Counted from the stretch's first letter, positions 1,928-24,271 are shown. The stretch: 64,000 nucleotides of DNA from Acidimicrobiaceae bacterium (GCA_003151235.1 PLWZ01000066.1:1-64000), one strand, 5' to 3'. The notes: generated by a model from the sequence alone, not told the origin. Program-made: numbers and translations.

Positions 1928-1946
1928 GCAGCCCCGGGACTGACTG

Positions 1947-3302: not shown

Positions 3303-3323
3303 TAACGACTCCTGGGAGGGTCC

Positions 3324-4488: not shown

Positions 4489-5055
4489 CTATGAGCTGGC
4501 TTCGCAGCCCCACGATCCGGTGAGATGGATCGTCCCCTTACCCGGCTTGCCACTAAAGCTCTGGTCGGGTACGAGCAAGATCTTGAGGCTTCCCGAGGTG
4601 GGGGTGATAGTGAGGACCCCGCTCTTGGAGGCCCAGTAGTAATCCGTGGTGCCATTGCTGCTCTGAAGTACCACGGAGACCCCATTACCGGTCAGCCCGC
4701 CGAATTTGTTGAAGGTCCCCCCGTTCTTCTGCTTTCCAAGGTTGTTGACGTTGACCGTCCATTCGTCAGAGCTCGAGCCCCTGAGCTTGCTCGAGAACGC
4801 GAACTGGCCTCCGTATCCGCCAACCGACTCGCAAGGGCCATTGCTCTGAGTCAAGGTGCCCTGCACTGCGCCGCTGAACTTGAAAGTCGTTGTGCTGGGA
4901 GACGTCGATGCGTGAGCGACTGCCGGCACGCTCAACAGTGCAAGCGCCCCCACACCCACAGCCATTCCGAGATAGGCGCGCTTGCGTAACCCGTGTCGGC
5001 TGGCGGGGAAATCAGAGATGGACAGTGCCCTGAAGGTCCGTCGCACGAGAGTCAT
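4489..5055 (-). CDS. Exported protein of unknown function
   Basis: A 188-residue protein with a long N-terminal signal: basic stretch, then a hydrophobic core near residues 30-46 (AVGVGALALLSVPAVA) and a probable AHA cleavage site. The mature part is rich in Gly, Ser and Thr, strand-like (FKFSGAVQGTL, TIHLTGSWGC), with two cysteines near its start and end that could form a disulfide. No family recognised. The 134 bases between it and the dehydrogenase contain a coding-like minus frame (MPHAESANVARFGVGPKWP) without a clear start, perhaps another remnant. Confidence 0.7.
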   Translation of the reverse strand: MTLVRRTFRALSISDFPASRHGLRKRAYLGMAVGVGALALLSVPAVAHASTSPSTTTFKFSGAVQGTLTQSNGPCESVGGYGGQFAFSSKLRGSSSDEWTVNVNNLGKQKNGGTFNKFGGLTGNGVSVVLQSSNGTTDYYWASKSGVLTITPTSGSLKILLVPDQSFSGKPGKGTIHLTGSWGCEASS

Positions 5056-5405
5056 CTTTGGGTCCCTCCAGGGGTCGATCCGGCAGCAGCACCCGCAACG
5101 GGACCCTATTCGACTTCTCGATATCGAACACTGGCCCGTTCACGGCCTTGACCAGCGGGCTCGCCGCCCCGAGTTCCTGGTTGGGGAGATCAAGGTCGAG
5201 TGACGATCGCCTACGCGGAGCAGCGGTACCACCTTCCGGCTTTGAGCGCCGGGACACCGTTCCTGCGAGCGCTCGATTCATTGCTGAGCGAGTGATGCCT
5301 CTCGTAGTTCTTTCGTCTCGTCTGCGGTAGGCACCGATGGAGGTTTTCTCGAGTCGTGGCGATGTACCTTCCCGCACCGATGCCAGCCGCAGTCGATGGC
5401 CAGAC
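5056..5405. other. 350-base stretch without a recognised gene
   Basis: Open frames here are short and look like chance. One minus frame (about 5060-5205, reading PLVKAVNGPVFDIEKSNRV) has GC-rich third positions but no start codon or family match. It may be a remnant or the leader of the exported protein. Confidence 0.4.
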
Positions 5406-5681
5406 TCAGCCTTGGATCACGTTGTGCACTTGGGCGACCATCGGCTCCTTCAGCCCGACACCCAACTCGGTGAGGATCGGCATAAGAGTCGGCCCGAACG
5501 CATCGAAATCTTCCTGCGACTCCCAGATGTCGAAGACTTGGATCTCACCGTTCGATTCGAGCGCGACGTGGAAGGTTCGCCCCTTGGGAGCCCCCGCACC
5601 GGCTGCATCGAGCTGCTTGATCGCGCTCTCATACTTATCCTGCGTGAATCCCTCGTGTACGAAATAGATTCCAAGTGCCAT
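5406..5681 (-). CDS. 91-residue dimeric alpha/beta-barrel-like protein, copy B
   Basis: Starts MALGIYFVHEGFTQDKYES and contains KGRTFHVALESNG, FDIWESQEDFDAFG and MVAQVHNVIQG; it is the same length as copy A at 1165-1440, without gaps. An AGGTGCACC sequence precedes the ATG. The 292 bases to the next gene hold nothing recognisable. The paralogs flank the decayed region, as if the gene had been duplicated during the rearrangements. Biochemical role unknown. Confidence 0.7.
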   Translation of the reverse strand: MALGIYFVHEGFTQDKYESAIKQLDAAGAGAPKGRTFHVALESNGEIQVFDIWESQEDFDAFGPTLMPILTELGVGLKEPMVAQVHNVIQG

Positions 5682-5973
5682 GGTGCACCTACTCTTTCTG
5701 CGCTTGCGGCGCGTTTCGTTATGGGTTGTCGGAAGCGAGTTCGACTGGCAACGGGTGTGAACCGGGCAAATGGTGAGGCTTTCCAACGTCAACAGAAGGT
5801 CTGGCCCCGACCGCCGCTCACGGCGATACTGCCCTGTAGAGCCGCTGGGGTGGTCATGTCGGTCCGCATGTCGAAGGTTGGTTGGCTTCGGTGATTCTTG
5901 TCCCCGAACGACACTTCGGGCTATCGCCTCGACTCCAGAGGGCCTCCAGGACACCGACGATTCATCGAAAAGC

Positions 5974-6267
5974 TTAGGGGAGCATGACGTACGTGCGCTG
6001 CACCAGGGGCTGACCCAGACCCGCCAGGACTTTTTCAAGATGCCCCGTCTCGACAATACGCTCGCCGAAGGCGGCGTCGTGGACCTCGGAGGAAGTCCAA
6101 CGCTGGACGAAGGTGAAAGACAGCTCGTCATCCTGGTCTCTGTAGAGATCGAAGGATTCACAGCCATCGGCCCCTCGCATGCGGTTCCGGCCTTCGATCA
6201 GGAGTGGTTCGAGTGTGCTCTGCTGACCCGGAGCGGCATGAAACTCCGTGATGTGCGTGATACTCAT
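5974..6267 (-). CDS. Antibiotic biosynthesis monooxygenase (ABM) domain protein
   Basis: A 97-residue single-domain protein: ITEFHAAPGQQSTLEPLLIEG, GCESFDLYRDQDDELSFTFVQRWTS and a last strand ending RTYVMLP. This is the ABM ferredoxin-like fold, usually a homodimer and sometimes a cofactor-free monooxygenase of quinones or heme. Its start codon overlaps the stop of the mycothiol-type enzyme at 6267-7019, so the two are translated as a pair. Confidence 0.85.
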   Translation of the reverse strand: MSITHITEFHAAPGQQSTLEPLLIEGRNRMRGADGCESFDLYRDQDDELSFTFVQRWTSSEVHDAAFGERIVETGHLEKVLAGLGQPLVQRTYVMLP

Positions 6268-7019
6268 CAGAACGGCACCTCCGTCGCGAGTAGTCCGGTA
6301 CCGGGTTGGCGGGAACCAACCGTCATGCAGAAATCGAGAGCGTCGAGTTCAAGCTGTTCTCCGTGATCGCCGGCTTGCCACTGGCCACCAGCGGTACCGG
6401 TCAGTGTCAGCGAGAAGGGCCGGCCATGGCGGTGACCCCATTCGGCAACGACATCGTCGACCAGGCGGCCGTCATGCGCCTCCGTAAGCACCATTGCCGT
6501 CCCGGTGGCCCGGCTGATGTCGAGTCGGTGCATCCACGTATCGCGGGTGAAAATCTTGTCGACCAGGAAGCCGAATCGCCACTTCTCGGCGTCGAAGGGT
6601 GGGTCCTGCTTCATGCGGACGATGTGACGGACCAGACCCGGTGTCCGACGACGGGCTTTGACCGCCTTGGGAGCGACCGACGCAAGACGGGTGACAATCG
6701 CCTCGGGCGTCATCGACGCACGCTCGGCGACTTGTGCCGCGGTCATAGCATCGATCATCTTTCCGCCTGATCTTTTGCTTGCCGCTCGGAAGTCATGAGC
6801 GAACTGGCGCATGGAAGCTTGCGCCTCAGCCATGCCCAGCACGTGGGAGGCCATGGCACGCACGTCCCAGAGCTCGCAGACCGTGGGTTGTCGCCAGTCC
6901 TCCGCCGACAGGCTACCCAGCTGCTCCACCATGCGGGCGAATTCGGTCTCGGCCAACCCCATGGCTTCCTTGTGCCCCAAGGGAGTGTCGATCGTCTTGC
7001 CGGCCGTTGCTGCGTCCAT
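6267..7019 (-). CDS. Maleylpyruvate isomerase family, mycothiol-dependent enzyme
   Basis: A 250-residue DinB/MDMPI-fold protein. Helix 1 carries EFARMVEQLGSLSAEDWRQPTVCELWDVRAMASHVLGM, with the His of the three-ligand metal site. RDTWMHRLDISRATG supplies the second metal-binding helix, and a C-terminal SCP2-like beta portion follows (FSLTLTGTAGGQWQAG). Family members isomerise maleylpyruvate or use mycothiol as co-substrate, which fits an actinobacterium. It is divergent from a TetR gene across 61 bases, which likely regulates it. Confidence 0.85.
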   Translation of the reverse strand: MDAATAGKTIDTPLGHKEAMGLAETEFARMVEQLGSLSAEDWRQPTVCELWDVRAMASHVLGMAEAQASMRQFAHDFRAASKRSGGKMIDAMTAAQVAERASMTPEAIVTRLASVAPKAVKARRRTPGLVRHIVRMKQDPPFDAEKWRFGFLVDKIFTRDTWMHRLDISRATGTAMVLTEAHDGRLVDDVVAEWGHRHGRPFSLTLTGTAGGQWQAGDHGEQLELDALDFCMTVGSRQPGTGLLATEVPF

Positions 7020-7080
7020 GAGGCCACCTCAGTATTCCGAACAGTGTCAGGAGTCTCGCGCCACATTCGGATAAGATCAA

Positions 7081-7683
7081 GTGGTGGCCGAGAGGACTGC
7101 CGTTGAACCGCGTCGAGATCGCCGGCACGCGCGCCATCAGGCCACCAAGCGGGAGATCCTCGATGCGGCCTGGAAGATGGTGCGGGCCGACGGCCTCAAC
7201 GCCCTCTCCTTGCGGGCACTGGCCCGTGTGGTCGATATGGAGCCCCAATCGCTCTACACGTACTTCGCTTCAAAGCATTCGGTCTACGACCACCTCTTTG
7301 CGGATGGCAACCGCGAGCTGCTGGCTCGCTTCGACCGGCTTGAGGTCAGCGACGACGTCCGCCGCGCCCTGCGCGCCGTTGCCCACGTCTTTGTGACCTT
7401 TGCAGCAGAAGATCAGGCGCGTTACGAACTGCTTTTCCTGCGCACGATTCCAGACTTCGAGCCATCACCAGAGTCCTATGCAGTCGCACTCGAGGTCTTC
7501 AATCGGGGCCGTTCCATCCTCACCGGCGTGGGACTCGACAATCCCGAGGACTTTGATCTCTGGACCGCACTCGTTTCGGGTTTGTCGAGCCAGCAGCTGG
7601 CCAACGATCCCGGTGGTGATCGCTACATCAGGCTGATCGACAACGCTGTTGCGATGTTTGAAGAGCACATGTTCGGCCGCTAG
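7081..7683 (+). CDS. TetR family regulator with WHG-type C-terminal domain
   Basis: About 200 residues. The helix-turn-helix spans roughly residues 20-65 (KREILDAAWKMVRADGLNALSLRALARVVDMEPQSLYTYFASKHSVYDH). The C-terminal part (ARYELLFLRTIPDFEPS) resembles the WHG/TetR_C_33 ligand domain. GTG codons at 7081 and 7084 are both possible starts. A TAAGAT hexamer at 7072-7077 would put a transcription start near 7084, so the message may be leaderless. It is the likely controller of the divergent 6267-7019 operon. Confidence 0.9.
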   Translation: MVAERTAVEPRRDRRHARHQATKREILDAAWKMVRADGLNALSLRALARVVDMEPQSLYTYFASKHSVYDHLFADGNRELLARFDRLEVSDDVRRALRAVAHVFVTFAAEDQARYELLFLRTIPDFEPSPESYAVALEVFNRGRSILTGVGLDNPEDFDLWTALVSGLSSQQLANDPGGDRYIRLIDNAVAMFEEHMFGR

Positions 7684-7854
7684 GGCGTGAGGGGCGTCGA
7701 CTACTGCGGGGCTGCCATCGCGATATTCATCGAAATGAAGCTGGTGTTGCCAGGCTGGCCCGGGGCGCAGGATCCCGAATCAGGGCAATTGCGCATGCGG
7801 TCGGCACTCAAATTGGTTCGTCTAGCTGCTACGACGCCAGTAAAGGCCAAGTAG

Positions 7855-7927
7855 CACCCCCAACGGGATTCGAACCCGTGTTACCGCCTTGAAAGGGCGG
7901 CGTCCTAGGCCGCTAGACGATGGGGGC
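7855..7927 (-). tRNA. tRNA-Glu (anticodon TTC)
   Basis: The reverse strand folds into a full cloverleaf: acceptor GCCCCCA pairing with TGGGGGT, anticodon arm CCGCC-CTTTCAA-GGCGG with TTC, and T arm ACGGG-TTCGAAT-CCCGT. CCA is not encoded. It lies directly downstream of the ctaA stop, on the same strand. Confidence 0.95.
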
Positions 7928-11302: not shown

Positions 11303-12261
11303 CGCGTCTTCCGAGTCCGTCGTCGAACCGGGACCGGATCACCGTCGTGCGGCCGGTCATGGTCCGACCCGACCAGAGCCAGGTAGGTCTCCTCGAGCGA
11401 GGCGGTCGTGCGCAGTTCGACCAATGCGGCGTCGTGGTCGGCGAGCCAGGTCGCGAGGTCAGCGGTCAAGCGCGGGCTCGGCTGGGCGTCGAGCGTGTAG
11501 GTGCCGTTGCCGTCCTCGACCACCCCCGCCCCGAGCGCGGCGGCGATGGCGGCTGTGTCGAGCCCTGCTCTGGAGGTGAACCGCACGGACGGACGGTCGC
11601 CCCCGGCCACGGCCAGCTGCGCCGGGGTCCCGTGGGCCAGGACTCGCCCTGTGCCGACAACCACCATCCGGTCGGCCAGTCTCTCGGCCTCGGTGAGCTC
11701 GTGGGTAGTCATGAGCACGCAGGTCCCCCGCTCCCGGAGGCCCGAGATGATGGCCCGCAAGCCGATGCGGCCCTCGGGATCCACCCCTGCCGTCGGCTCG
11801 TCCAAGAACACGACCTCGGGCCGACCGACCAGGGCAAGGGCCAATGAGACCCGTTGCTGCTCCCCACCCGAGAGGTGGCGCCAGGGGGTGCTCTCGACCT
11901 CCCGCAGCCCGACCAGCTCCAAGAGCGCGTCGGTCGGTTCGGGGTCGCGGTAGTAGCCGCGAAAGAGCTCGACCGCCCGCCTCGGGGACAGCATCGGGTA
12001 CACCCCGCCGCTCTGGAGCATGACCCCGATCCGAGAGACGAGTGCGCGGTGCTCGGCCCTCGGGTCGAGACCGAGGACTCGGACGCTTCCAGAGTCGGGG
12101 GTGCGGTATCCCTCCAGCGTCTCGATGGTCGTGGTCTTGCCGGCGCCGTTCGGGCCGAGGACGGCGACCACCTCTCCGGCATCGGCTTGGAGGGAGATGC
12201 CGTCGACCGCCGCCGTCGCGCCGTAGCGGAGGACGAGGTCGGAGCACTCGACGGCCGGCAT
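11299..12261 (-). CDS. ABC transporter ATP-binding protein (ABC-2 exporter type)
   Basis: A 320-residue ATPase: Walker A GPNGAGKTTTIE near residue 37, Q-loop VMLQSGG, signature LSGGEQQRVSLALAL, Walker B VVFLDEPTAGVD, switch His in MTTHELTEAE. The C-terminal 100 residues form the extra beta domain common in drug- and lipid-type ABC-2 exporters. It is the partner of the 10571-11302 permease and divergent from serS. Confidence 0.92.
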   Translation of the reverse strand: MPAVECSDLVLRYGATAAVDGISLQADAGEVVAVLGPNGAGKTTTIETLEGYRTPDSGSVRVLGLDPRAEHRALVSRIGVMLQSGGVYPMLSPRRAVELFRGYYRDPEPTDALLELVGLREVESTPWRHLSGGEQQRVSLALALVGRPEVVFLDEPTAGVDPEGRIGLRAIISGLRERGTCVLMTTHELTEAERLADRMVVVGTGRVLAHGTPAQLAVAGGDRPSVRFTSRAGLDTAAIAAALGAGVVEDGNGTYTLDAQPSPRLTADLATWLADHDAALVELRTTASLEETYLALVGSDHDRPHDGDPVPVRRRTRKTR

Positions 12262-12324
12262 GACGGATGCACGCTACCGGGACCGGGTCCGGCCTCTCGT
12301 GCGGCGCAGATAGCGTTGCCGGTC

Positions 12325-13629
12325 ATGATCGACGTCCGGCTCATCCGGGAGGATCGGCCCGCGGTCGCGGCGGCGCTCGGTCGGCGGGGGGTTGAACCCG
12401 CCGAGGTCGATCGGGTGGCCGAGCTCGACGAGACGTCCCGGCACCTGCTCCAGGCCCGGGAGGCACTACGGGTCCAGGTGAAGGAGTTGTCTCGTCAGGT
12501 CGGAGAGGCTCGGCGATCGGGCGATCAGCCGGCCGCCGAGTCATTGTCGGCGGAGAGCCGTGCCTTTGGGGAGCGGGAGCGAGAGGCGGCCGGACAGGCC
12601 GAGGCTGCCCAGGCATCGCTTCGCCACGCCCTCCTGCTCCTGCCCAACCTCCCGTCGGACGAGGCCCCCGACGGCGCTGGAACGGAGGACAACGTCGAGA
12701 TCCGGCGGTGGTGGCCCGGCATCGACGAGGGGACGGAGGCACCCGAGTTCGCAGATCACCAGCGGGTGCCGCACTGGGAGATCGGCGAACAGCTCGGGAT
12801 CCTCGACCTAGAGCGCGGCGCCAAGCTCTCGGGATCCATGTTCCCGTTGTTCCGCCAGATGGGGGCGCGGCTGTTGCGAGCCCTCACGGCCTTCGCCCTG
12901 GCGCACCACGTGGACGCCTACGAGGAGATCCGGCCGCCTTCGCTCGTGTTGACCGAGACCATGATCGCAACCGGCCACCTGCCGAGATTCGGCGACGAGG
13001 GCTACCACATCGAGCGCGACGACCTGTGGGCGATCCCGACCGCGGAGGTCCCCCTCACCTCCCTGTATCGCGGCGAGATCATCGACGAGGCGTCACTGCC
13101 GATGCGATTCTGCGCGGTGACCCCATGCTTTCGCCGCGAGGCCGGAGCGGCCGGCCGCGACACGCGCGGGCTGCTGCGAATCCACGAGTTCGACAAGGTC
13201 GAGCTGATGGCCTACGCGACCGAGGCGCAGGCCGCATCCGTCCATGCCGACATCACGGCCCGGGCGGAGGGGTTGCTCCAAGAGCTCGGTCTCATGTACC
13301 GGGTGCTCGACCTGTGCACCGGGGATCTCGCCGGACCCTCCGCGCGCACGCTCGACCTCGAGGTGTTCATGCCCGGTGAGGACCGGTTCTGGGAGGTGTC
13401 GTCGGTCAGTTGGTACCGCGACTATCAGGCCCGGCGGGCCAACGTCCGCTACCGACCGTCCTCGGGGGGCCAACCGGTGCTCGTGCACACGCTCAACGGC
13501 TCCGCGCTCGCGTGGTCGCGGGTCTGGCCCGCCCTGGTCGAGACCGGGCGTCAGCCCGACGGTTCTGTGCGCCTGCCCGACTGTCTCGCCCCATACCTGG
13601 GCGGCGAGACGGTGATACGACCTAGCTGA
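12325..13629 (+). CDS. serS: Seryl-tRNA synthetase
   Basis: A 434-residue class II synthetase that charges tRNA-Ser in the cytosol. The N-terminal coiled-coil arm (residues 25-105) is rich in Ala, Glu and Arg. Motif 2 is CFRREAGAAGRDTRGLLRIHEFDKVEL; motif 3 is HTLNGSALAWSRVWPALVE. The serine-site stretch reads EVSSVSWYRDYQARRANVRYR, where common SerRS have an SSCSN-type sequence, so it diverges there. The ATG fits the start of the arm; the longer open frame upstream overlaps the ABC ATPase and is a shadow. Confidence 0.93.
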   Translation: MIDVRLIREDRPAVAAALGRRGVEPAEVDRVAELDETSRHLLQAREALRVQVKELSRQVGEARRSGDQPAAESLSAESRAFGEREREAAGQAEAAQASLRHALLLLPNLPSDEAPDGAGTEDNVEIRRWWPGIDEGTEAPEFADHQRVPHWEIGEQLGILDLERGAKLSGSMFPLFRQMGARLLRALTAFALAHHVDAYEEIRPPSLVLTETMIATGHLPRFGDEGYHIERDDLWAIPTAEVPLTSLYRGEIIDEASLPMRFCAVTPCFRREAGAAGRDTRGLLRIHEFDKVELMAYATEAQAASVHADITARAEGLLQELGLMYRVLDLCTGDLAGPSARTLDLEVFMPGEDRFWEVSSVSWYRDYQARRANVRYRPSSGGQPVLVHTLNGSALAWSRVWPALVETGRQPDGSVRLPDCLAPYLGGETVIRPS

Positions 13630-13636
13630 GCGCCCC

Positions 13637-14386
13637 TCAGCGCTTCGGGTCGGCGAACCGGTATCCCACGCCGCGGACGGTCGTGATCAGCGTCGGTTGC
13701 CCGGGGTCGAGCTCGATCTGGGAGCGAAGCCGCTTGATGTGCACATCGAGCGTCTTCGTGTCCCCGATGTAGTCGCTCCCCCAGACGCGGTCGATCAGGA
13801 CGTCCCGGGTGAGAACCCGGCCGGCATTCTCGACGAGCAGGCACAGCAGGTCGAACTCCTTGCGGCGGAGCCGGACCTCGGCATCCCGCACGAAGACCCG
13901 ACGTTGCACCGCGTCGACCGTGACCTCGCCGGAGGTGATCTGGCCGTCGTCGGTCCGCTCCACCCCCTCGTCGTCGTGCATCTGCTGATGCGGCGAGCGT
14001 CTCGACACGGCGTGGATGCGGGCCACGAGCTCGCGCATGCGGAACGGCTTGGTGACGTAGTCGTCTGCGCCGACCTCGAGCGCGACGACCGTGTCGATCT
14101 CGGTGCCCTTTGCGGTGACCATGATGATCGGGATTCCCGATGTCGCCCGGATGGAACGGCACACATCGAGGCCCGACACGCCGCCCGGCAGCATCTGGTC
14201 CAGCAGGACCACGTCCGGATCGACCTCCTCGAACTGGCGGAGGGCCGAGTTCCCGTCGCGGGCCACATGCACGATGAATCCCTCGTGACCCAGTCCGACC
14301 ACGAGGGCGTCGACGAAGGACTCCTCGTCCTCGGCGATCAACACACTGATCGAATGGTCCCCACCGGGACGGGTGCGACGAGCCAT
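13637..14386 (-). CDS. OmpR/PhoB-family response regulator, RegX3-like
   Basis: A 249-residue regulator. The receiver domain has its acidic pocket at Glu19-Asp20, the phospho-acceptor Asp63 in VVLLDQMLPG, and the conserved Lys in DDYVTKPF. A winged-helix output domain ends TLITTVRGVGYRFADPKR. Its 19-codon upstream extension is excluded because the ATG at 14386 lies directly after the kinase stop. It pairs with the kinase at 14388; in relatives SenX3-RegX3 controls phosphate starvation genes, and a pst operon with a PHO-box-like promoter is in this window. Confidence 0.9.
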   Translation of the reverse strand: MARRTRPGGDHSISVLIAEDEESFVDALVVGLGHEGFIVHVARDGNSALRQFEEVDPDVVLLDQMLPGGVSGLDVCRSIRATSGIPIIMVTAKGTEIDTVVALEVGADDYVTKPFRMRELVARIHAVSRRSPHQQMHDDEGVERTDDGQITSGEVTVDAVQRRVFVRDAEVRLRRKEFDLLCLLVENAGRVLTRDVLIDRVWGSDYIGDTKTLDVHIKRLRSQIELDPGQPTLITTVRGVGYRFADPKR

Positions 14387-14387
14387 G

Positions 14388-15908
14388 TCAGCCCACCCGT
14401 TCCTGCTGCAACGGCAGCACCAACGTGAACGTCGAGCCCTCACCCTCGCGGGATTCGACGATCACGCGGCCTTGGTGGTTGTTGGCCACGTGGCGCACGA
14501 TGGACAGGCCGAGACCCGTGCCGCCCGTGTTGCGGCTCCGACCGTGGTCGACCCGGTAGAAGCGCTCGAAGATCCGCTCGCGGTCGCGGTTCGGGATCCC
14601 GAGGCCGTGGTCGGCCACCGAGATCCTCACCGTCTCCCGCTCGTTGTCGGCCCGGCCGTCGTCGCCGAGGGTCGGGTCGAGCATGCCGGGCAGCCTGATC
14701 GCGCCGGCGACGAAGGCCGGTTGCCCAGATGTCAGGCCGGCGTCGGCGCCCGAGGGGATTCCGGGGATACTCGTCGAGGCCTGCTGTTGAGCCAAGGCAC
14801 CCACGACCGGGCCGTTGTTGACGGCCGTCGCGGCGTCATCGGCCATCTCGGAGGGGTCGGCACCCCCGATCGCCTCCCGGCAGATCGTCCCGCTGACCGT
14901 GACGGTGCTGTTCTCGTATGAGTAGGTGACGGCGTTCTCGAGCAGCGCGTGGAGGGCCGAGACCAGCTGGCGCCGATCGCCGATGACGGCAACCGGCGGT
15001 GACGGCTCGTATAGGACGATCGCGATGCCGCGCTGTTCGGCCGCCGCGCGCACTCGCTCGACAGCCTCGGCCATCACCAGGTTCACCAGGACCGGCTCGC
15101 GGGGCGGGGCGGCCTCGGCCTCGATGCGGCTCAGGTCGAGGAGGTCGTCGATGATCCGGCTCACCCGAAAGGCCTCTGTGTGGATCCGGTTGGCCAAACG
15201 CTTGGCCACGTCGGCGTCGGGTTCGACGACCAGGGTTTCGGCCAACAACCCGAGCGCTCCCATCGGGGTCTTCAACTCGTGGCTGACGTTGGCCACGAAG
15301 TCGCGGCGCACCATCTCGAGCCGCCGCCGCTCCGAGATGTCCTCGATCGTGGCGATGACCCCGAGCGACCGGCGCCCGTCGTCGATCAGGAGGGCCCGCA
15401 CGCTCAATGTCCGCGGCGGGGGACCGTAGAGGTCGAGCGTCCGCTCAGCCGTCCCCTGGTGCCACGCTTCTTCTAGGAGCTCGGTCACCGCCTGCGCGGC
15501 GAGTGCGTCGCCGAGCCGGCTCGTCATGAGCGCGTTTGCCGGTGCGTTCTGGTACACGACCTTGCCCGTGTCGTCGCACAGCACCACACCTTGGGGTAGC
15601 GCGTCGATTGCCCTGCGGAGGCGGATGGCATCGGCGCTCGCCTCGGCGACGGCTTCGGACGCCGCCCCGGTGACCTGCTCCAGATAGGCCAGGGCGTTCT
15701 CGAGGCCGCTCTCCTCCGCGGGCGGGTGGAGACCAAGGCGGGAACCGAGGGCGGTCAACCTCTGGGTGAGGGCCTGGCGTCCCGAGCGCCGGCCGAACAT
15801 CACCGAGAACATGACCGCGACCACCAGGATCACCCCGGCCAGGGCGTACGCGATGGGAGGCGCCAACCCGGCGATTCGGTCGGCGGCCACCACCTCAACC
15901 ACGATCAC
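14388..15908 (-). CDS. Sensor histidine kinase, SenX3-like, with an ATPase-domain insertion
   Basis: A 506-residue kinase with one N-terminal membrane helix (about residues 15-38), a PAS-like domain (RAIDALPQGVVLCDDTGKVVYQN) and a dimerisation helix with the phospho-His in NVSHELKTPMGALG near 210. The catalytic domain has an N box LLENAVTYSYE, G1 DHGLGIP, F box FERFYR and G2 GGTGLGLSIV. Between N box and G1 there is an extra stretch of roughly 65 residues, rich in Ala, Gly and Pro, that ordinary SenX3 proteins lack, making this one about 100 residues longer. It is upstream of, and cotranscribed with, the regulator. Confidence 0.9.
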   Translation of the reverse strand: MIVVEVVAADRIAGLAPPIAYALAGVILVVAVMFSVMFGRRSGRQALTQRLTALGSRLGLHPPAEESGLENALAYLEQVTGAASEAVAEASADAIRLRRAIDALPQGVVLCDDTGKVVYQNAPANALMTSRLGDALAAQAVTELLEEAWHQGTAERTLDLYGPPPRTLSVRALLIDDGRRSLGVIATIEDISERRRLEMVRRDFVANVSHELKTPMGALGLLAETLVVEPDADVAKRLANRIHTEAFRVSRIIDDLLDLSRIEAEAAPPREPVLVNLVMAEAVERVRAAAEQRGIAIVLYEPSPPVAVIGDRRQLVSALHALLENAVTYSYENSTVTVSGTICREAIGGADPSEMADDAATAVNNGPVVGALAQQQASTSIPGIPSGADAGLTSGQPAFVAGAIRLPGMLDPTLGDDGRADNERETVRISVADHGLGIPNRDRERIFERFYRVDHGRSRNTGGTGLGLSIVRHVANNHQGRVIVESREGEGSTFTLVLPLQQERVG

Positions 15909-16152: not shown

Positions 16153-16449
16153 ATGTCCTGGACAATCATGCTGGCAACGGTCACGCTGAATCCGGATCCC
16201 GGCCAGCTGCCCGGCGGTGGCACCCTTCAGCAGCTGGCCAATGGCATCGGTGGCTGGGCGTTGATCTTGGCACTGGTCGGCCTGGTCATCGGCGCCGCTG
16301 CGTGGGCGCTTGGCGCTCACTCGCAGAACTATCACCAGTCCTTCGCGGGCCGACGGGCCGTGCTGGTGGCCGGGCTCGCGGCCCTGCTTATCGGGGCCGC
16401 ACCCACGCTCATCAACTTCTTCTTCGGCGCCGGCGCGGGATTGCACTGA
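16153..16449 (+). CDS. Small two-helix membrane protein of the type IV secretion-like cluster
   Basis: A 98-residue protein with hydrophobic segments near residues 36-57 and 71-93, separated by a short basic loop (HSQNYHQSFAGRRA). A GAGAG purine run precedes the ATG. Size and shape match the VirB2/TrbC-like or DUF6112-like proteins at the head of actinobacterial conjugation clusters, and it precedes a TrbL-like gene by 22 bases. It could be the pilin-like subunit; sequence alone does not prove that. The 244 bases upstream, divergent to senX3, should hold the operon promoter. Confidence 0.65.
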   Translation: MSWTIMLATVTLNPDPGQLPGGGTLQQLANGIGGWALILALVGLVIGAAAWALGAHSQNYHQSFAGRRAVLVAGLAALLIGAAPTLINFFFGAGAGLH

Positions 16450-16471
16450 CCGGCACCGGGCCGGGGGAAGC

Positions 16472-17866
16472 ATGCGAGCCCGCGACGCCCGGGGTCTCTC
16501 GATGATCGCCGCCTTGCCGGTCATCCCGGCGGTCGGATGTGCGGCGATACCCGGGCTGAGCGGTGTGTGCGGCGCCGTGAGCGGCATCGGCTCGTCGATC
16601 ATCGGCGCCGGTGCCGGGGACGTGCTTGGAGCAATCGCTGGAGGAGTGGCGCAGGGCGCGGGGTGGTTGCTCAGCCAGATCGGCGGCGTGATCACCTCGA
16701 CCACCTCCATCGATCTCGGAGCGGCGTGGTTCAAGAGCCACTACGAGGTCATGGTCGGCTTGGCCGCGATCGTGCTTCTGCCGCTGTTGATGGCCTCGGT
16801 GATCCAGTCGATCTACCACCAGAACGTGAGCGGGCTGCTCCGGGCCGCACTTGTCCATCTCCCGTTGGCTCTCCTTTTGGGCGCGGTGGCGGTACAGCTG
16901 GTGCAACTGGCCCTGGCGGCGACGGACGCGTTGAGCTCGGCGGTGTCGTCGACCTCGTCTGGCGACATCGGGTCGGCCTTGTCCGGCCTTGCATCCGCGC
17001 TGGCCGCCCAGGCTTCGGGGGGGAACCCTGCGCCGACGTTCGTCGTGTTGATCGGAGCGCTGTTCGTGGCGTTCGGCGCGCTCCTGCTCTGGGTGGAGCT
17101 GTTGGTACGGGCCTCTGCCGTCTACGTGGCGACGCTGTTCTTCCCGCTGGCCATGGCCAGCCTCGTGTGGCCGTCCATCTCGCAGTGGTGCCGACGCCTC
17201 GTTGAAACCGTCGCCGCGTTGATCCTGTCCAAGTTCGTGATCGTGGCCGTGCTCAGCCTGGCCATCGGAGCTCTCGGGGCCAGCGACGGTTCGATCGCTT
17301 CAGAACTGGCCGGCGGGGCGCTCCTCCTCCTGGCCGGCTTCGCCCCGTTCACCCTGCTGCGACTTGTTCCGATGGTGGAGTCCGGAGCCGCCCACCAGCT
17401 GGAGGGCGTTCGCCACCGCGTCCAACAGACGGCCATGGCCGGTCCGCGCTCGGCGGTTTCGTTCGCGCTCGGTCACGTTCCCGCGGCGGCGCTCCCCGAA
17501 CTGATGGCGGGCACCGGCGCCGACGTGACGCCGGACGCGCCGGGTGGCGGCTCGGGCGGCACAGCGGTCGGGCGGCCCGGCGGGGAGTCCACCAACCCGG
17601 GAGACGCGGCGGGGGCCGGCGTGCCGATGTGGCGGGGGGTACCTGAACCCGACGAGAGCGCTCGAGAGCCCTCGGCGCCAGGAGTTTCGGCTCCCGGGCC
17701 CTCCAAGAACGGCCCGCCACCGGTCTGGGGGGCACCACTGGCGATCCCGGCGCGCTCCACGGTCCGCTCCGGTACCCACGTGATCGAGCGGGACGAGATG
17801 GGCCCCGTCATCAAGTGGCGCCCGTCCGAGCCGAGTCCCCCGGCCCCCGATGCCCGTGGCGGTTGA
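16472..17866 (+). CDS. TrbL/VirB6-like channel protein
   Basis: A 464-residue polytopic protein. The N-terminal 70 residues are Gly/Ala-rich and hydrophobic. About six membrane helices follow, including VGLAAIVLLPLLMASVIQSI, FVVLIGALFVAFGALLLWVELLVRAS and TLFFPLAMASLVWP. The last 130 residues form a polar Pro/Gly-rich cytoplasmic tail. This layout is that of TrbL/VirB6 inner-membrane subunits of type IV secretion systems. It overlaps the next gene by 17 bases. An ATG with GGGGGAAG just upstream is taken as start. Confidence 0.8.
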   Translation: MRARDARGLSMIAALPVIPAVGCAAIPGLSGVCGAVSGIGSSIIGAGAGDVLGAIAGGVAQGAGWLLSQIGGVITSTTSIDLGAAWFKSHYEVMVGLAAIVLLPLLMASVIQSIYHQNVSGLLRAALVHLPLALLLGAVAVQLVQLALAATDALSSAVSSTSSGDIGSALSGLASALAAQASGGNPAPTFVVLIGALFVAFGALLLWVELLVRASAVYVATLFFPLAMASLVWPSISQWCRRLVETVAALILSKFVIVAVLSLAIGALGASDGSIASELAGGALLLLAGFAPFTLLRLVPMVESGAAHQLEGVRHRVQQTAMAGPRSAVSFALGHVPAAALPELMAGTGADVTPDAPGGGSGGTAVGRPGGESTNPGDAAGAGVPMWRGVPEPDESAREPSAPGVSAPGPSKNGPPPVWGAPLAIPARSTVRSGTHVIERDEMGPVIKWRPSEPSPPAPDARGG

Positions 17867-19379
17867 TCCACCCAAGTATCGGTTCGGCCCGCTCGAACAG
17901 CGGGGCCTCATCGCCGGATGGCGGGGCGGCCAGATCGCGGTCGTCGCGGCGGGGCTCGTCGTCGGGGTCCTGGCCCTGCGGGAGCACCCGGACCCGATCG
18001 GCGTGGTCCTGGCGGTTCTGGCGCTCGGGTCCTCACTGGCCGTCGCGTGCTGGCCGCTCGCCGGGAGGACGGGGGAGGAGTGGTTGCCGACGGTCGTCCG
18101 ATGGGGGGCGGACGGGGTCGGGGGTCGCCATCGTCGGTCTTCGTCGCCGGGAACGGGCCACTGTCCGGGTTCGGACGGCGTTGCGTGCCTCGTCGGCGAC
18201 CCCGGCGCGCCGGGTGTTCGGCCACCGCCAATGGCCACCTCGGGAGCGTTTGGCGGACTGGTGATCCTCGGGGTCGAAGCCGGCCCAGCGGATGCTTCGC
18301 AGGTCGGGATCGTGCACGACACACGGGCGGGCACCTTCACCGGCGTGCTCTCGCTCGAGGGCCACAGCTTCGCCCTCCTCGGGTCCGACGACAAGGAACG
18401 CCGCGTGTCGCTCTGGGCGGGCGTCTTGGCCGCTTTGGCGCGTGAGGGGTCGTCGATCCACCGGATCCAATGGCTTGCCATCGCGCTGCCCGACGACGGC
18501 CGAGCGGTCCACTCGTACCTCGACGACCGGGCAGTCGAGCCATGCGAATCGCCGGCGCGGTCCTCATACGCAGAGCTGTTGGAAGAGGCCGGTGCCGATA
18601 CGTCGCGCCACGCGGTGCTGATGGCGGTGCAGGTCCGCGCCGGGAGGGGTTCCCACCGTCAGATCGAGTTGCCAGCAGCTGTGCTCGTTCGCGAGCTCGA
18701 GAACGTGCGGAGGCTCGTGACCGACGCCGACGTGGCGTGTCGGGGCGTTCTCGATCCGGCCTCGATCGCGGCCACGATCCGCGCCCTTGGTCAATCGGAT
18801 CCTCCTGCCGACGGGGAACCGCCGGATCCCGGGTCCGATACAGGCCGATGCCCACCATGTCTTCTCGGCGCACCGTGGCCCATGGCCACCTCGGTCGAAT
18901 GGAGCCGCGTCAGGACGGACGCCAACTGGCACGCGACGTACTGGATCGCCGAATGGCCGCGCATCGATGTTGGCCCCGACTTCCTGGCCCCGCTGCTGCT
19001 CGGGCCCCTCCGGCGTTCGATCGGGGTGGTGATGGAGCCGGTCAGCCCGTCGCGCGCTGTGCGCGCGGTTGAACAGGCCCGGACCGCCGATATCGCCGAC
19101 TCCGAACTGCGTCGACGTGGCGGGTTCTTGTCGACCGCACGACGCGCCCGCGAGGCCGAGCTCGTCGCACGTCGCGAGACCGAGCTGGCCGACGGCCACG
19201 GGTCCTATCGGTTCAGCGGGTACGTGACGGTCACCGCGCCGAGCGCCTCGCAGCTAGAGGCGTGGTGCGAAACGACCGAGCATGCCGCCGGTCAGGCCAG
19301 GCTGGAGCTCCGGCGCCTCTACGGCGACCAGGAACGGGCACTCTTGTGCACCCTCCCGTTGTGTCGGGGACTCTCGTGA
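17850..19379 (+). CDS. SCO6880-like type IV secretion component
   Basis: A 509-residue protein. The first 70 residues contain two membrane helices (GGQIAVVAAGLVVGVLAL and GVVLAVLALGSSLAVACWPL), like PrgI, after a KYRFGPLEQRG start. The soluble part carries conserved-looking HSFALLGSDDKERRVSLWAGVL, WHATYWIAEWPR and SGYVTVTAP segments, as in the N-terminal domain of VirB4/TraC. Streptomyces SCO6880-type proteins have this fusion and sit before the ATPase gene, as here. Residues about 85-140 are low-complexity and less convincing; paired frameshifts there cannot be excluded. Confidence 0.75.
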   Translation: MPVAVDPPKYRFGPLEQRGLIAGWRGGQIAVVAAGLVVGVLALREHPDPIGVVLAVLALGSSLAVACWPLAGRTGEEWLPTVVRWGADGVGGRHRRSSSPGTGHCPGSDGVACLVGDPGAPGVRPPPMATSGAFGGLVILGVEAGPADASQVGIVHDTRAGTFTGVLSLEGHSFALLGSDDKERRVSLWAGVLAALAREGSSIHRIQWLAIALPDDGRAVHSYLDDRAVEPCESPARSSYAELLEEAGADTSRHAVLMAVQVRAGRGSHRQIELPAAVLVRELENVRRLVTDADVACRGVLDPASIAATIRALGQSDPPADGEPPDPGSDTGRCPPCLLGAPWPMATSVEWSRVRTDANWHATYWIAEWPRIDVGPDFLAPLLLGPLRRSIGVVMEPVSPSRAVRAVEQARTADIADSELRRRGGFLSTARRAREAELVARRETELADGHGSYRFSGYVTVTAPSASQLEAWCETTEHAAGQARLELRRLYGDQERALLCTLPLCRGLS

Positions 19380-20650
19380 GGACCCAGGCGGGCTTCCGCG
19401 TGCCGGCCCACGCGGTGACCACCCGCAACCTCGGCGCCGCCTACCCGTTGGTCGCAGAGGCGGGCCTCGGGCACCGGGGCGTCTTGATCGGCCACGACCT
19501 GTTGGGCGGCTCGTTCGTCTACGACCCCTTCGAGCTGTACCGCGACGGTGTCGTCTCCAACCCCAACATGATCGTGTTCGGCCAGATCGGTCGCGGCAAG
19601 AGCTCGTTGCTCAAGACCTACCTGTGGCGCCAGGCCGTCTTCGGCCGGCGGGCCTGGGTGGTCGATCCGAAGGGGGAGTACGCGGGACTGGCCGACCTGT
19701 GGGGAGTGCGGCCGGTCGCCCTCCGGCCCGGTGGGTCGATCCGCCTCAACCCGCTCGACCCGGTCCAGACCGCCGCAGGGAAGCCCGATCCCGGTGGGCC
19801 CGATGACCCGGCCCGCCGCCAGTCCGAACTCCTCGCCTCCCTGGCCAGTGCCTGTCTCGGCCGGTCACTGGCGCCGCGCGAACGTGCGGCGCTCGATCTC
19901 GCGTTGGCCTCGGCCCGCCGCTCCTCGGCCGTCCCGACGTTGCCGAGGGTCGTGGAGGCGCTGCTCGAACCGGCCGATGAGTCCGCGACGAGCATTCGCA
20001 CGGACAGGACGACGCTCCTCGAGGACGGCCGGGACGTTGCCCTCGAGCTCCGTCGTCTCGTCCACGGGGACCTGCGCGGCATGTTCGACGGGGAGACAAC
20101 GGCCGGGCTCGACCTGTCGGGCCCGCTCGTGGTGCTCGATCTCTCGGCGCTGTACACCTCGGCGGCGCTCGGGGTCCTCATGGCATGTGCGACGGCGTGG
20201 CTGCAGGCGGCGGTGTCGCGTGACGGCCCGGCAGACCAGGCGTTCCTGGTCGTCGATGAGGCGTGGGCGATCCTGGCCAACCTGGGGGTCGCCCGGTGGC
20301 TTCAGGCGTCCTGGAAGCTGTCACGCGCCCACGGCGTCGCCAACGTGGCGGTGCTTCACCGCCTCTCCGATCTGACTTCGGTCGGGGCCACGGGGTCCGA
20401 GCAAGTCGGCCTGGCCGAGGGCCTGCTGAGCGATTCGGAGACGTTGGTCATCTATGCGCAACCGCCCGGCGAGGTCGCGCGGGCGACCGAGCTGCTGTCG
20501 TTGTCACCGACGGAGGCCGAACTGGTGCCGCAGCTCCGTCGAGGCATAGCCCTGTGGAAGGTCGGCCGCCGGTCGTTCCTGGTCCGCCACGTCGTCGGGT
20601 CGTCGGAGCGGGCCCTCGTCGACACCGATGCGGCCATGGGCCGACCATGA
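19376..20650 (+). CDS. VirB4/TraC-like type IV secretion ATPase
   Basis: A 424-residue ATPase. Walker A is FGQIGRGKSSLLKTY (Lys75), followed by WVVDPKGEYAGL; Walker B is FLVVDEAWAIL near residue 300, then a helix with KLSRAHGVANVAVLHRLSD. It is the motor that powers assembly or transfer in type IV systems. The GTG start overlaps the stop of the SCO6880-like gene and its own stop overlaps the next ATG. The N-terminal VirB4 domain is missing here and appears to be supplied by the preceding gene product. Confidence 0.88.
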   Translation: MRTQAGFRVPAHAVTTRNLGAAYPLVAEAGLGHRGVLIGHDLLGGSFVYDPFELYRDGVVSNPNMIVFGQIGRGKSSLLKTYLWRQAVFGRRAWVVDPKGEYAGLADLWGVRPVALRPGGSIRLNPLDPVQTAAGKPDPGGPDDPARRQSELLASLASACLGRSLAPRERAALDLALASARRSSAVPTLPRVVEALLEPADESATSIRTDRTTLLEDGRDVALELRRLVHGDLRGMFDGETTAGLDLSGPLVVLDLSALYTSAALGVLMACATAWLQAAVSRDGPADQAFLVVDEAWAILANLGVARWLQASWKLSRAHGVANVAVLHRLSDLTSVGATGSEQVGLAEGLLSDSETLVIYAQPPGEVARATELLSLSPTEAELVPQLRRGIALWKVGRRSFLVRHVVGSSERALVDTDAAMGRP

Positions 20651-22131
20651 CGCTCGCCGGTGTCGCCATCTCCGGAGCGCTCACCGCCGCGCTGGTCGGC
20701 GCCGCGATGGTGCACGCCGAACCCACCCGACGGCGGCAGCGAACGCGACGCGACGCACGGCCGGCGTCGGGTGCCCGCTGGGCGAACCGTCGCGAGCTTC
20801 GGCACCTCACCGAGACCGGCCCGGGGCGGATCCGACTCGGCACCGCCGAGGCGGCCGGGTTCCGCCGCGCGCCCGAGCTCTGGACCGAGCCGGCCCAGTC
20901 GGTGGCGGTGATCGGACCGACCCAGAGCGGGAAGACAACCGGGCTCGCCGTTCCGGCCATCCTCAGTTGGCGCGGACCGATCGTTGCGGCCAGCGTGAAG
21001 ACGGACCTGTTGGCCGCCACCGAGGCGTGGCGACGAAGCCTCGGCACCGTCTGGTGCTTCGACCCTGCCGGGACGACCGGTCGGCCGACGAGTGCTTGGT
21101 CGCCGCTGCCCGCCGCGCGCACGTGGGCCGGCGCCCGACGGGTGGCGGCCGACCTGACCGAGGTCGCACGCTCCCCGACGACTACCGGGGACGGCGAGTT
21201 CTGGTACGCAACGGCAGCGAAGTTGTTGGCGCCGCTGCTGTTCGCGGCAGCGACCGGCGGCGGCACTATGGACGACGTGCTTCGGTGGGTCGACACCCAG
21301 GAGGTCACCGAGGTCCTCGACCTGTTGGAGTCGGCGGGCGTGGACCAGGCCATCTGGGCGGCCAGGGCGACGTGGCAGCGCGACGAGAGGCAGCGATCAT
21401 CGGTCTACACGACCGCCGAGACGGTGCTCGAGCCCCTCGTCGGTGGCGATGCGGACCCGGGATCGACCGTCGACCCCGGCGTCCTCCTCGAAGCCAGCAA
21501 CACGCTCTATCTCTGCGCACCGGTGCACGACCAGCGACGACTCCGAGGACTGTTCGTGGCCCTGGTCAAGCAGGTGCTCGAGGCGGCGTTCGCGAGAGCG
21601 GTGCTCTGTGGCCCGCTCGACCCACCGCTTCTGGTGGTCCTCGACGAGGCGGCCAACATCGCGCCGGTGGCGGAGCTCGACGGCCTGGCGGCCACCTGTG
21701 CCGGCAGCGGGATCCAGCTGGTGACGGTGTGGCAGGACATGGCTCAGATCACCGCCCGGTACGGGGCCCGGGCACCGACCGTGCTCAACAATCACCGGGC
21801 CCGGCTGTTCCTGTCGGGCATCGCGGATCCGTCGACGCTCGAATACGCGAGCGGGCTGGTTGGCGAGGAGGAGGTCTCGATGGGATCGCTGACCCGGGAC
21901 GGCCGGGGCGGCCGTTCGACCACCACCTCGACCCATCGTCGCCGGCTTCTGCCGCCCGAGGCGTTGCGCCAGCTGCCGAGGGGCACGGGAGTCCTGATCT
22001 ATGGAGAGCGTCCCCCGATCCGTCTCCGCCTCGTCCCTTGGTCCCGCGACCCGGTGCTGGCGGACCGCGGCCGCGCGTCCGGTCTGGGGTCTCGTAAAGC
22101 TGCGGGACCCGACCCGGCGACGGTCGGATAG
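20647..22131 (+). CDS. VirD4/TraG-like coupling ATPase
   Basis: A 494-residue protein with one N-terminal membrane helix (residues 4-23), Walker A GPTQSGKTTG (Lys96) and ASVKTDLLAATEAWR. Walker B is LVVLDEAANIAP, and the coupling-protein segment IQLVTVWQDMAQITARYG follows, then NNHRARLFLSG. These are features of type IV coupling proteins, which bring DNA-protein or protein substrates to the channel. It is the last gene of the cluster, with a four-base overlap upstream. No relaxase is found next to it. Confidence 0.9.
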   Translation: MTLAGVAISGALTAALVGAAMVHAEPTRRRQRTRRDARPASGARWANRRELRHLTETGPGRIRLGTAEAAGFRRAPELWTEPAQSVAVIGPTQSGKTTGLAVPAILSWRGPIVAASVKTDLLAATEAWRRSLGTVWCFDPAGTTGRPTSAWSPLPAARTWAGARRVAADLTEVARSPTTTGDGEFWYATAAKLLAPLLFAAATGGGTMDDVLRWVDTQEVTEVLDLLESAGVDQAIWAARATWQRDERQRSSVYTTAETVLEPLVGGDADPGSTVDPGVLLEASNTLYLCAPVHDQRRLRGLFVALVKQVLEAAFARAVLCGPLDPPLLVVLDEAANIAPVAELDGLAATCAGSGIQLVTVWQDMAQITARYGARAPTVLNNHRARLFLSGIADPSTLEYASGLVGEEEVSMGSLTRDGRGGRSTTTSTHRRRLLPPEALRQLPRGTGVLIYGERPPIRLRLVPWSRDPVLADRGRASGLGSRKAAGPDPATVG

Positions 22132-22155: not shown

Positions 22156-23385
22156 GTGGCCCAGCTGTTCGACCCCGGGTTCATTGATGACCCGTGGCCC
22201 CGCTACGCAGCGCTGCGGGATTCGGCGCCCGTTCACCGCGACCCGCGGGGGTTCTGGGTGGTCACCGGCCACGCCGACTGCCTCGAGGTCTTGCGGTCCA
22301 AGGCCGCGTCGTCCGACGGGACGAACATCGACCCCGCTGCGATGCCCGACGGCCTCGGACGTCAAAGTGGTGGCGGGGACATGTCCGACGAGATGGCCCA
22401 GGCGATGGCCGACAACCGCCCGTTCCTGTTCCGCGACCCGCCCGAACACACGAAGCTGCGCGGCCTGGTCTCGAAGGCCTTCACACCACGGATGGTCGAA
22501 GGACTTCGCCCCCGGATCGAGGGAATGGTCGACGAACTTCTCGACGCCGCGTACGAGCGCGGGGAGATCGACGTCGTGCGCGACTTCGCGTACCCGCTGC
22601 CGATCCGGGTCATCTGCGAGATGCTCGGCGTCCCCGAATCCGACCGCGACCTGTTCTCCGGCTGGTCGGCGGTGCTCGCCAAGGGCCTCGACCCGGAGTT
22701 CTTGCAGCCCGACGACGCGATCGAGGAGCGCTTCGCGGTCATCGGGGCGTTCTCGGAGTACTTCTTCGGGTTGATGGCCGAGAGACGGCGGGCTCCCGGG
22801 GACGACCTGCTGAGCCGGCTGGCGCTGGCCGAGGATGACGGGGAGGTGCTGACCGAGGGGCAGATGTTCTCGACGGCCATCCTGCTGCTGGTGGCCGGCC
22901 ATGAGACGACGGTGAATCTGATCTCGGGGGGCGTCCTCGCACTCGCGCAGCATCGCGACCAGTTGGCCGCCTGGCGCGCCGACCCGTCGATCACCGGCAC
23001 GGCGGTCGAGGAGTTGTTGCGTTTCGTGTCTCCCGTCCAACTAACCGGTCGGGCGTTACTCGACGACATCGAGGTCTCCACGGCCACGTTGCCCAAGGGC
23101 CACTTCGTGCTGGCGCTGATCGCTTCGGGCAATCGCGATCCGGCCGCCTTCGCCGACCCCGACCAACTCGACCTGAGTCGGACCGAGAACCGCCATCTCG
23201 GCTTCGGATTCGGGCTGCACCATTGCCTCGGGGCCCCACTGGCTCGGTTGGAGACGGCCATCGCGTTGCCGCGCCTGTTGGAGCGCACCGCGTCCCTCGA
23301 GCTGCTGAGCGACCGCGTCACCTACCGCGACAACGTCGTGCTGCGTGGCCTGGCCGAGCTCGCCGTGCACATGTCGGCGGCCTGA
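22156..23385 (+). CDS. Cytochrome P450
   Basis: A 409-residue soluble P450. It has the I-helix oxygen motif LLVAGHETTVNL, the ExxR motif VEELLRFVSPVQLTGRA and the heme-cysteine loop FGFGLHHCLGAPLARLE. These are of the bacterial class that uses a separate ferredoxin. It starts at GTG 24 bases after the coupling ATPase and could share its transcript. No ferredoxin or reductase gene is beside it, so electron donors and substrate are unknown. Confidence 0.93.
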   Translation: MAQLFDPGFIDDPWPRYAALRDSAPVHRDPRGFWVVTGHADCLEVLRSKAASSDGTNIDPAAMPDGLGRQSGGGDMSDEMAQAMADNRPFLFRDPPEHTKLRGLVSKAFTPRMVEGLRPRIEGMVDELLDAAYERGEIDVVRDFAYPLPIRVICEMLGVPESDRDLFSGWSAVLAKGLDPEFLQPDDAIEERFAVIGAFSEYFFGLMAERRRAPGDDLLSRLALAEDDGEVLTEGQMFSTAILLLVAGHETTVNLISGGVLALAQHRDQLAAWRADPSITGTAVEELLRFVSPVQLTGRALLDDIEVSTATLPKGHFVLALIASGNRDPAAFADPDQLDLSRTENRHLGFGFGLHHCLGAPLARLETAIALPRLLERTASLELLSDRVTYRDNVVLRGLAELAVHMSAA

Positions 23386-23428
23386 GCGGCCCCAAGGGTG
23401 CGCGGACGGCCGGGTAGTGTGCCCCTTG

Positions 23429-24271
23429 GTGGCTGATCACGACGCCGAGGTCGACGAGGAGGAGCCCGGCCTCACGCCCGTCGGTGCCGGCCACGTCCTG
23501 GTCAAGCCCCTGACGCTCGCCATCGACGTCGGGGGCACCGGCCTCAAGGCGTCGGTGCTTGACGCCACCGGCGCGATGGTGGCCGACCGCGTGCGGGTGC
23601 CGACCAAGTACCCGCTTCCCCCCGACGGCCCCGACGGCATGGTCCCGACGCTCGTGAAGCTGGTCAAGCCGTTGCCCGAGGCCGACCGGGTGTCGGTGGG
23701 GTTCCCCGGCATGGTCCGCGGGGGCAAGATCCTGAGCGCACCCCACTTCGTCACCGAGTCCGGCCCCGGGTCCAAGGTGGACCACCAGCTGGAAAAGGCC
23801 TGGTCCCGCTTCGATCTCGCCGGCGCGCTGGCTGACGGCCTCGGCAAGCCGACCAAAGTGGCCAACGACGCCGACGTGCAGGGGGCAGCGGTCGTGAAGG
23901 GCCAGGGCCTGGAGTTCGTCATCACGTTGGGCACCGGGTTCGGGACGGCGGCGTTTCTCGACCGGTGTCTGTTGCCGCACCTCGAGATCGCGCATCAGCC
24001 GTTCCGCAAGGGCGAGACGTACAACGATCAGTTGGGGGAGCGGGCGCGCAAGGACATCGGCGACGAACGCTGGAACACGAGGGTGCGCAAGGCCATCGAC
24101 CAACTGGACGCGATGCTGTTCTTCGACCACCTCTTCATCGGTGGCGGCAACGCGCGCCGGGTCAAGCGCGACGACCTTGGCGACGTGTTGGAACGGACGA
24201 CGGTCGTCGACAACAGCGCCGGGATCCTCGGCGGGATCCGGCTCTGGGAGGGCGACCACCTCGGTCTCTGA
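23429..24271 (+). CDS. ROK-type kinase, polyphosphate-glucokinase-like
   Basis: About 280 residues: phosphate-binding loop LAIDVGGTGLKASVLD near residue 29, VSVGFPGMVRGGK, the catalytic Asp in VANDADVQGAAVV, ITLGTGFGTAAFLD, and a C-terminal LFIGGGNARRV. The order and spacing fit the polyphosphate/ATP glucokinase branch of the ROK family, which phosphorylates glucose in the cytosol. GTG at 23429 is chosen; the open frame to 23345 overlaps the P450. The zinc-binding CxCGxxGC motif of many ROK proteins is absent, as is normal for PpgK. Confidence 0.8.
   Translation: MADHDAEVDEEEPGLTPVGAGHVLVKPLTLAIDVGGTGLKASVLDATGAMVADRVRVPTKYPLPPDGPDGMVPTLVKLVKPLPEADRVSVGFPGMVRGGKILSAPHFVTESGPGSKVDHQLEKAWSRFDLAGALADGLGKPTKVANDADVQGAAVVKGQGLEFVITLGTGFGTAAFLDRCLLPHLEIAHQPFRKGETYNDQLGERARKDIGDERWNTRVRKAIDQLDAMLFFDHLFIGGGNARRVKRDDLGDVLERTTVVDNSAGILGGIRLWEGDHLGL

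Follow-up and report, generated by a model that had tools for sequence, protein, structure and literature searches.

A chromosomal type IV secretion-like operon and an unlinked MobF relaxase locus with conserved positions in Acidimicrobiaceae and related families

Introduction

What might a bacterium export through a minimal type IV secretion-like operon that lies among the housekeeping genes of its chromosome and has no relaxase beside it? The question is raised by five genes at positions 16153–22131 of a 64,000-nucleotide stretch of DNA (C32:1-64000, hereafter the window) from an Acidimicrobiaceae bacterium, the genome of which comprises 3.57 Mb in 93 contigs and is 93.31% complete. The first-pass annotation, made from the sequence alone, saw in these genes a possible DNA- or protein-transfer machine of actinobacteria and, as a possibility, this has held. 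In the literature on SCO6880/DUF6112, on type IV secretion systems (T4SSs) of Acidimicrobiia and on core relaxases, most subscription papers being outside the scope of the search, no description was found.

The five-gene operon is designated here as locus A, and the segment C19:86557-89403 of the same genome, encoding a MobF/TrwC relaxase and a second VirD4-like protein (VirD4#2), as locus B. The named close relatives of the source organism are Acidimicrobiaceae metagenome-assembled genomes from palsa and bog, the nearest being palsa_461, the g5 protein of which is 93% identical. The term family refers to the GTDB family of the source genome, the relaxase having been counted there over 100 genomes from 21 genera, 69 of the genomes being of high quality.

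Components of the operon

Locus A consists of five tightly packed genes on one strand, with overlaps of 17 bases between g2 and g3 and of 4 bases each between g3 and g4 and between g4 and g5. Gene calls and profile matches confirmed this overlapping arrangement, already recognized by the first-pass annotation, together with the components it had named—a pilin, a TrbL-like, a PrgI/TraC-N-type, a VirB4-like and a VirD4-like protein. The first gene (g1; 16153–16449, plus strand, 98 aa) codes for a VirB2-like pilin of the family DUF6112 (35.1 bits in Pfam, cut-off 25), with weak matches to TrbC/VirB2 and T4SS_pilin and two transmembrane helices predicted from hydropathy at residues 36–54 and 64–82. 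It is followed by g2 (16472–17866, plus strand, 464 aa), a TrbL/VirB6-like polytopic channel protein resembling the SCO6881 family, its NCBIfam score of 65.7 bits being under the cut-off of that family and its TrbL match weak; about seven hydrophobic segments were recognized from hydropathy, and its AlphaFold model was discarded because of too low a confidence. The protein g3 (17850–19379, plus strand, 509 aa) belongs to the SCO6880 family (231.9 bits in NCBIfam, cut-off 60), g4 (19376–20650, plus strand, 424 aa, GTG start) corresponds to the C-terminal ATPase of VirB4 as a separate protein, and g5 (20647–22131, plus strand, 494 aa) is a VirD4-like coupling ATPase with one N-terminal transmembrane helix by hydropathy, matching the Pfam families T4SS-DNA_transf (122 bits, cut-off 20.1) and TraG-D_C (89.9 bits, cut-off 22). 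The Walker residues are invariant in all 28 orthologs of g5, as are Walker A GKS and Walker B DE in all 24 orthologs of g4.

Concerning VirB4, the original reading was that the motor has no N-terminal domain of its own; this is correct for g4, but the domain is not missing, since it lies in g3. The protein g4 aligns with positions 413–729 of the 752 in the CD1110-type VirB4 model (65 bits) and matches PDB 4ag5 (3e-10), whereas positions 202–362 of the same model are touched by g3, albeit marginally (E 0.0088). Moreover, Foldseek paired the AlphaFold model of g3 (mean pLDDT 56, pTM 0.52) with the N-terminal domain of R388 TrwK/VirB4 (E 6e-8), and residues 92–508 of the model aligned with TrwK 2–376 at a VIA Z of 17.8, far over the unrelated rows. 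Ahead of this fold, two hydrophobic helices in residues 25–68 (by hydropathy) form the VirB3/PrgI-like hairpin, and it is on these two transmembrane helices that the VirB3 assignment rests. Because the g3 fold matches the TrwK N-domain and the two proteins match successive parts of the CD1110 model, g3 and g4 appear to be the two pieces of a single VirB4 that carries a VirB3-like anchor. The VirB4-family P-loop ATPase expected of a mating-pair-formation core is thus present in g4, with the N-domain recognized in g3 by fold.

The absence of VirB8, also noted earlier, agrees with the TcpC/VirB8 profile PF12642 giving no match in the 93% complete genome; the channel may therefore be incomplete or use unknown parts. 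It should be pointed out that a lack of VirB8 is not strictly class-defining, because mycoplasma T4SSs are also without it: the minimal Gram-positive MPF-FATA/mycoplasma integrative and conjugative elements (ICEs) have VirB3, VirB4, VirB6 and VirD4 and lack VirB1 and VirB8 (PMC12857230). Locus A, with its putative VirB3 and VirB6 parts, shares with them the minimal VirB3-VirB4-VirB6-VirD4 set without VirB8. Those elements are, however, mobile and have their transfer genes linked, whereas the present system is core and chromosomal, is distributed over two loci, has its VirB4 in two pieces and is accompanied by a MobF relaxase and a second, soluble VirD4.

Chromosomal position of the operon

On the left, locus A is flanked by a serS-like gene on the plus strand and by regX3 and senX3 on the minus strand (11875–15908) and, on the right, by genes for a cytochrome P450 and a ROK-family protein on the plus strand (22156–24271), so that senX3 and the P450, the neighbours named at first, were confirmed by Pfam. 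Wherever the contigs of the family are long enough, the site is the same, i.e. serS-regX3-senX3, the operon, and then the P450 and/or ROK gene, the order of the left flank being identical in the 21 family loci whose contigs extend that far. The left flank is kept, whole or in part, in a further 13 families of the order (L232, L233, L235-L242, L244-L246, L248 and L249), and both loci A and B are syntenic in small genomes of 1.4–2.4 Mb (for locus A, 1.5–2.4 Mb in L093-L099). Since gene order and flanks are kept across many genera, the five-gene pattern is not due to chance. Outside the order, homologues of the operon are present, none of them with shared flanks.

In three loci of the family (L065, L077 and L080), the upstream sequence is unrelated, the break falling within g4, and the P450 and/or ROK gene downstream is retained; the break reflects either misassembly or rearrangement. 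Strong VirB4 matches without synteny in other families (L243, L247 and L250), perhaps mobile, were set aside.

A relaxase and att sites just outside the operon in related genomes would, according to the first-pass annotation, have pointed to an ordinary ICE. The flanks in the relatives proved to be serS/regX3/senX3 and P450/ROK, the relaxase lying elsewhere beside pafBC. In the window, Pfam revealed neither an integrase nor a relaxase in most of the called genes at 0.3–15.9 kb and 22–27 kb, and the Rfam scan yielded tRNAs only. One of these, a tRNA-Glu, is found at 7854–7927; beside it, positions 1–7700 hold short genes with a weaker coding signal, their Pfam families comprising TetR, DJ-1, MDMPI and ABM and no integrase.

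The relaxase locus

The early statement that there is no relaxase in sight stands for the operon and its scanned flanks, but not for the genome: a genome-wide search found a TrwC/MobF relaxase on another contig, at a second syntenic chromosomal locus together with VirD4#2. The relaxase (C19:87997-89403, L083:10998-12404, minus strand, 468 aa) and VirD4#2 (C19:86557-87981, L083:9558-10982) are convergent. The former is assigned to the MobF class by its TrwC HUH domain (236 bits, cut-off 25) and matches the solved TrwC structure, PDB 1omh (2e-29); it is the single MobF match in the source genome, in which the MobP profile (PF03432) has none. Loci A and B are unlinked, occurring on different contigs (C32 and C19). 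On one side, locus B borders gpsA, cofC and mshB and, on the other, the gene of a pafBC-like regulator, ctaG and genes for type IV pili, a position that is syntenic through the family; in 14 other families, the relaxase adjoins pafBC, VirD4#2, mshB or cofC. Within the family it is present in 96 of 100 genomes, in all 21 genera and in 68 of the 69 high-quality genomes. The search with g5 matched VirD4-like genes in 99 of 100 genomes, at least two in 87 and one in 12, a count that is not a clean tally of locus A since both types of VirD4 match; the few genomes with one such gene hint at a possible loss of locus A.

The predicted active site of the relaxase is intact. Among 29 copies, down to about 25% identity, the residues His152, His161, His163 and His165 are found in all, and Tyr14 and Asp83 each in 28, the lone exception at Tyr14 looking like a wrong start; the syntenic relaxases of other families also carry the PHxHxH motif and an N-terminal Tyr. 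The Walker motifs of VirD4#2 are likewise invariant, and no N-terminal membrane helix is seen in any scorable ortholog. Coupling proteins of a conjugative type are accordingly represented twice, by g5 and VirD4#2. What the relaxase appears to lack is the C-terminal RecD-like helicase of its class: it measures 330–485 aa in its own family and up to about 1060 aa in syntenic loci elsewhere, AAA_30 being weak or absent there and the Walker A pattern missing, so that the helicase of the syntenic relaxases is predicted to be degenerate or absent, whereas it is intact in a non-syntenic MobF control (L269). Four core relaxases of other families (L251, L252, L265 and L267) have a long C-terminal helicase-like region without Walker A, i.e. 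a helicase decaying in stages. R388 TrwC and F TraI thus have in common with the relaxase of locus B the HUH domain with the Tyr pair, Asp and His triad, but not its lack of a functional helicase domain nor its housekeeping neighbourhood.

The gene immediately upstream of the relaxase, co-oriented with it and separated from it by 52 bp in the source genome, encodes a fused PafB-PafC-like (WYL) regulator (L083:12457-14409), which occupies this place in nearly all syntenic loci; control of the relaxase by DNA damage is possible. In many of the larger genomes of the family, the genes pilC and pilB/T (L083:17183-19877) lie near the relaxase locus. A non-coding stretch of about 190 bp upstream of VirD4#2 (about L083:9028-9220) is conserved in the genus and contains the likewise conserved palindrome TCACAACgacgtGTTGTGA (L083:9193-9211, G000:C19:86192-86210), which occurs once in the genome. 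Neither this region nor locus B as a whole had an Rfam match, and the palindrome is a candidate oriT or operator, nothing more. Between mshB and VirD4#2 there is also a repetitive gene (L083:8699-9049), the opposite strand of which reads as a histone H1-like Lys/Ala/Pro repeat protein and the 5′ region of which is conserved beyond the genus.

The relaxase pair also bears on an intracellular or developmental role, in which the system would, like cmdABCDEF of Streptomyces, move or anchor chromosomal DNA at division rather than between cells. The Streptomyces loci SCO6878-SCO6884 and cmdABCDEF (SCO4126-4131) are chromosomal operons of the same SCO6880, SCO6881/TrbL and VirB4-type ATPase families, with no neighbouring relaxase described, as beside locus A. 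The chromosomal cmd operon of S. coelicolor has related VirB4/SCO6880/TrbL-type genes; when the operon is deleted, sporulation and the segregation of chromosomes are disturbed, plasmid transfer being unaltered (PMC2782261). A VirB4 match was present in all of the listed f109 genomes (Streptomyces-like, 7–10 Mb), its score in most of them being about 276 bits, as would be expected of a core cmdB-like locus. The present system, however, comprises a putative pilin and the relaxase pair, whereas the Streptomyces-like locus shows no senX3/serS synteny and no paired core MobF relaxase or second VirD4 has been described for it, and we regard such a role as distinctly unlikely.

Inheritance, selection and co-occurrence

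For the nearest pair of genomes, dN/dS amounted to 0.07–0.23 for g1–g5, 0.17 for VirD4#2 and 0.25 for the relaxase, compared with 0.08–0.27 for the neighbouring genes; the relaxase, at 0.25–0.36, is the fastest-evolving part. In gene trees, the T4SS genes and the relaxase gene showed distances that correlated with those of serS, regX3, senX3, pafBC and cofC (r 0.59–0.97, permutation p ≤0.001), the housekeeping genes correlating among themselves at 0.59–0.78. Both loci are vertically inherited and hold fixed chromosomal positions with conserved active sites. Some genomes (G521, L250 and L269) have several additional VirB4 copies outside the syntenic site, or complete MobF relaxases that retain the helicase; these probably belong to plasmids or ICEs.

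An origin as an ICE or plasmid was rejected on the basis of the fixed, syntenic site and the vertical signal, by which the chromosomal, non-ICE nature proposed at the outset was borne out. That the operon should be the remnant of an ordinary ICE, inactive or recently inserted, is extremely improbable: its protein families are those of conjugative elements, and copies elsewhere in the actinobacteria lack the synteny and could be mobile, but the same site in 14 families, the vertical signal, the low dN/dS and the invariant catalytic residues all argue against it, as does the absence of an integrase among the genes scanned around locus A. The relaxase, moreover, is unlinked.

Across the order, 86 of 93 VirB4-positive genomes are also relaxase-positive (Fisher p 3e-28, a value that ignores kinship and includes plasmid relaxases, which the relaxase search outside the family also catches), and in a single-contig genome of 2.16 Mb, both VirB4 and the relaxase are on that contig. 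Because the loci are unlinked, it is from this co-occurrence that we infer their cooperation.

The separation of the loci would also suit a protein-secretion T4SS, with locus A delivering proteins and the relaxase and VirD4#2 being unrelated to it, engaged, for example, in DNA processing during repair. In favour of it are the loss of the relaxase helicase, the adjoining pafBC, a regulator of the damage-response type, and the relaxase-less minimal chromosomal T4SS known in Patescibacteria (PMC12102498). The latter is likewise clade-wide, chromosomal, minimal and of the monoderm type; a relaxase is absent in most Patescibacteria (PMC12102498), whereas here it is core, with conserved catalytic residues. 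Full catalytic motifs and the VirD4 partner of the relaxase are, however, kept in nearly every sampled genus, the relaxase co-occurs with the core VirB4, and no conserved effector gene accompanies locus A, the flanks of which are of the housekeeping type; protein secretion is therefore considered unlikely, if worth bearing in mind.

Alternatively, the chromosomal channel and nickase could serve as resident helpers, mobilizing passing plasmids or ICEs devoid of machinery of their own. Additional full-length MobF relaxases with an intact helicase (L269) and additional VirB4 copies do occur in relatives, yet no host benefit is obvious in a situation where purifying selection acts in streamlined genomes, and the source genome, with no MobP relaxase and one MobF match, offers little for such a role, which seems very unlikely.

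Proposed function

Based on the above, we lean, with somewhat more belief than doubt, towards a domesticated, vertically inherited two-locus machine of the conjugation type, probably nicking and exporting chromosomal single-stranded DNA. Counting against this reading are the separation of the two loci, the loss of the relaxase helicase, the comparatively fast evolution of the relaxase and the lack of a VirB8 match. Locus A would provide the envelope channel—the pilin g1, the VirB6-like g2, the split VirB4 with g3 supplying the VirB4 N-domain and a VirB3-like anchor in the membrane and g4 the ATPase, and the membrane coupling protein g5—and locus B the substrate side, i.e. the MobF/TrwC relaxase, devoid of a functional helicase, and the soluble VirD4-like ATPase. 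The relaxase would nick the chromosome at an origin, possibly in the vicinity of locus B, and remain on the 5′ end, unwinding being left to a host helicase; VirD4#2 and then g5 would pass the relaxase-ssDNA complex to the g1–g4 channel, through which chromosomal DNA may be exported to neighbouring cells.

Chromosomal DNA as cargo, here proposed, would be shared with the gonococcal GGI, E. coli Hfr, mycobacterial DCT and Streptomyces TraB. GGI and Hfr are, however, insertions, DCT uses ESX and TraB moves dsDNA, the reviewed cases of chromosome transfer thus resting on inserted elements, ESX or TraB (PMC12857230). A release of DNA for natural competence in the gonococcal style was judged less likely because, unlike in the naturally competent gonococci, no match to the ComEC family was found in the source genome, a 93% complete draft.

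Conjugation usually belongs to plasmids and ICEs. A wider proposition, put forward tentatively and with rather more reserve than conviction, is that a large part of the order inherits, in its core chromosome, a machine programmed to export the cell's chromosomal DNA to other cells, which would be the host's and not a parasite's; the helicase-less relaxase, the soluble second coupling protein and the split VirB4 would be the features of such a host-owned system. If a relaxase and a T4SS are indeed inherited vertically, with their active sites kept, in reduced genomes and over about fourteen families, the export of DNA would benefit the host, and programmed gene exchange in bacteria would become a directly testable question. 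Tools that take T4SS or MobF genes to indicate mobile elements may, moreover, miscount in these bacteria.
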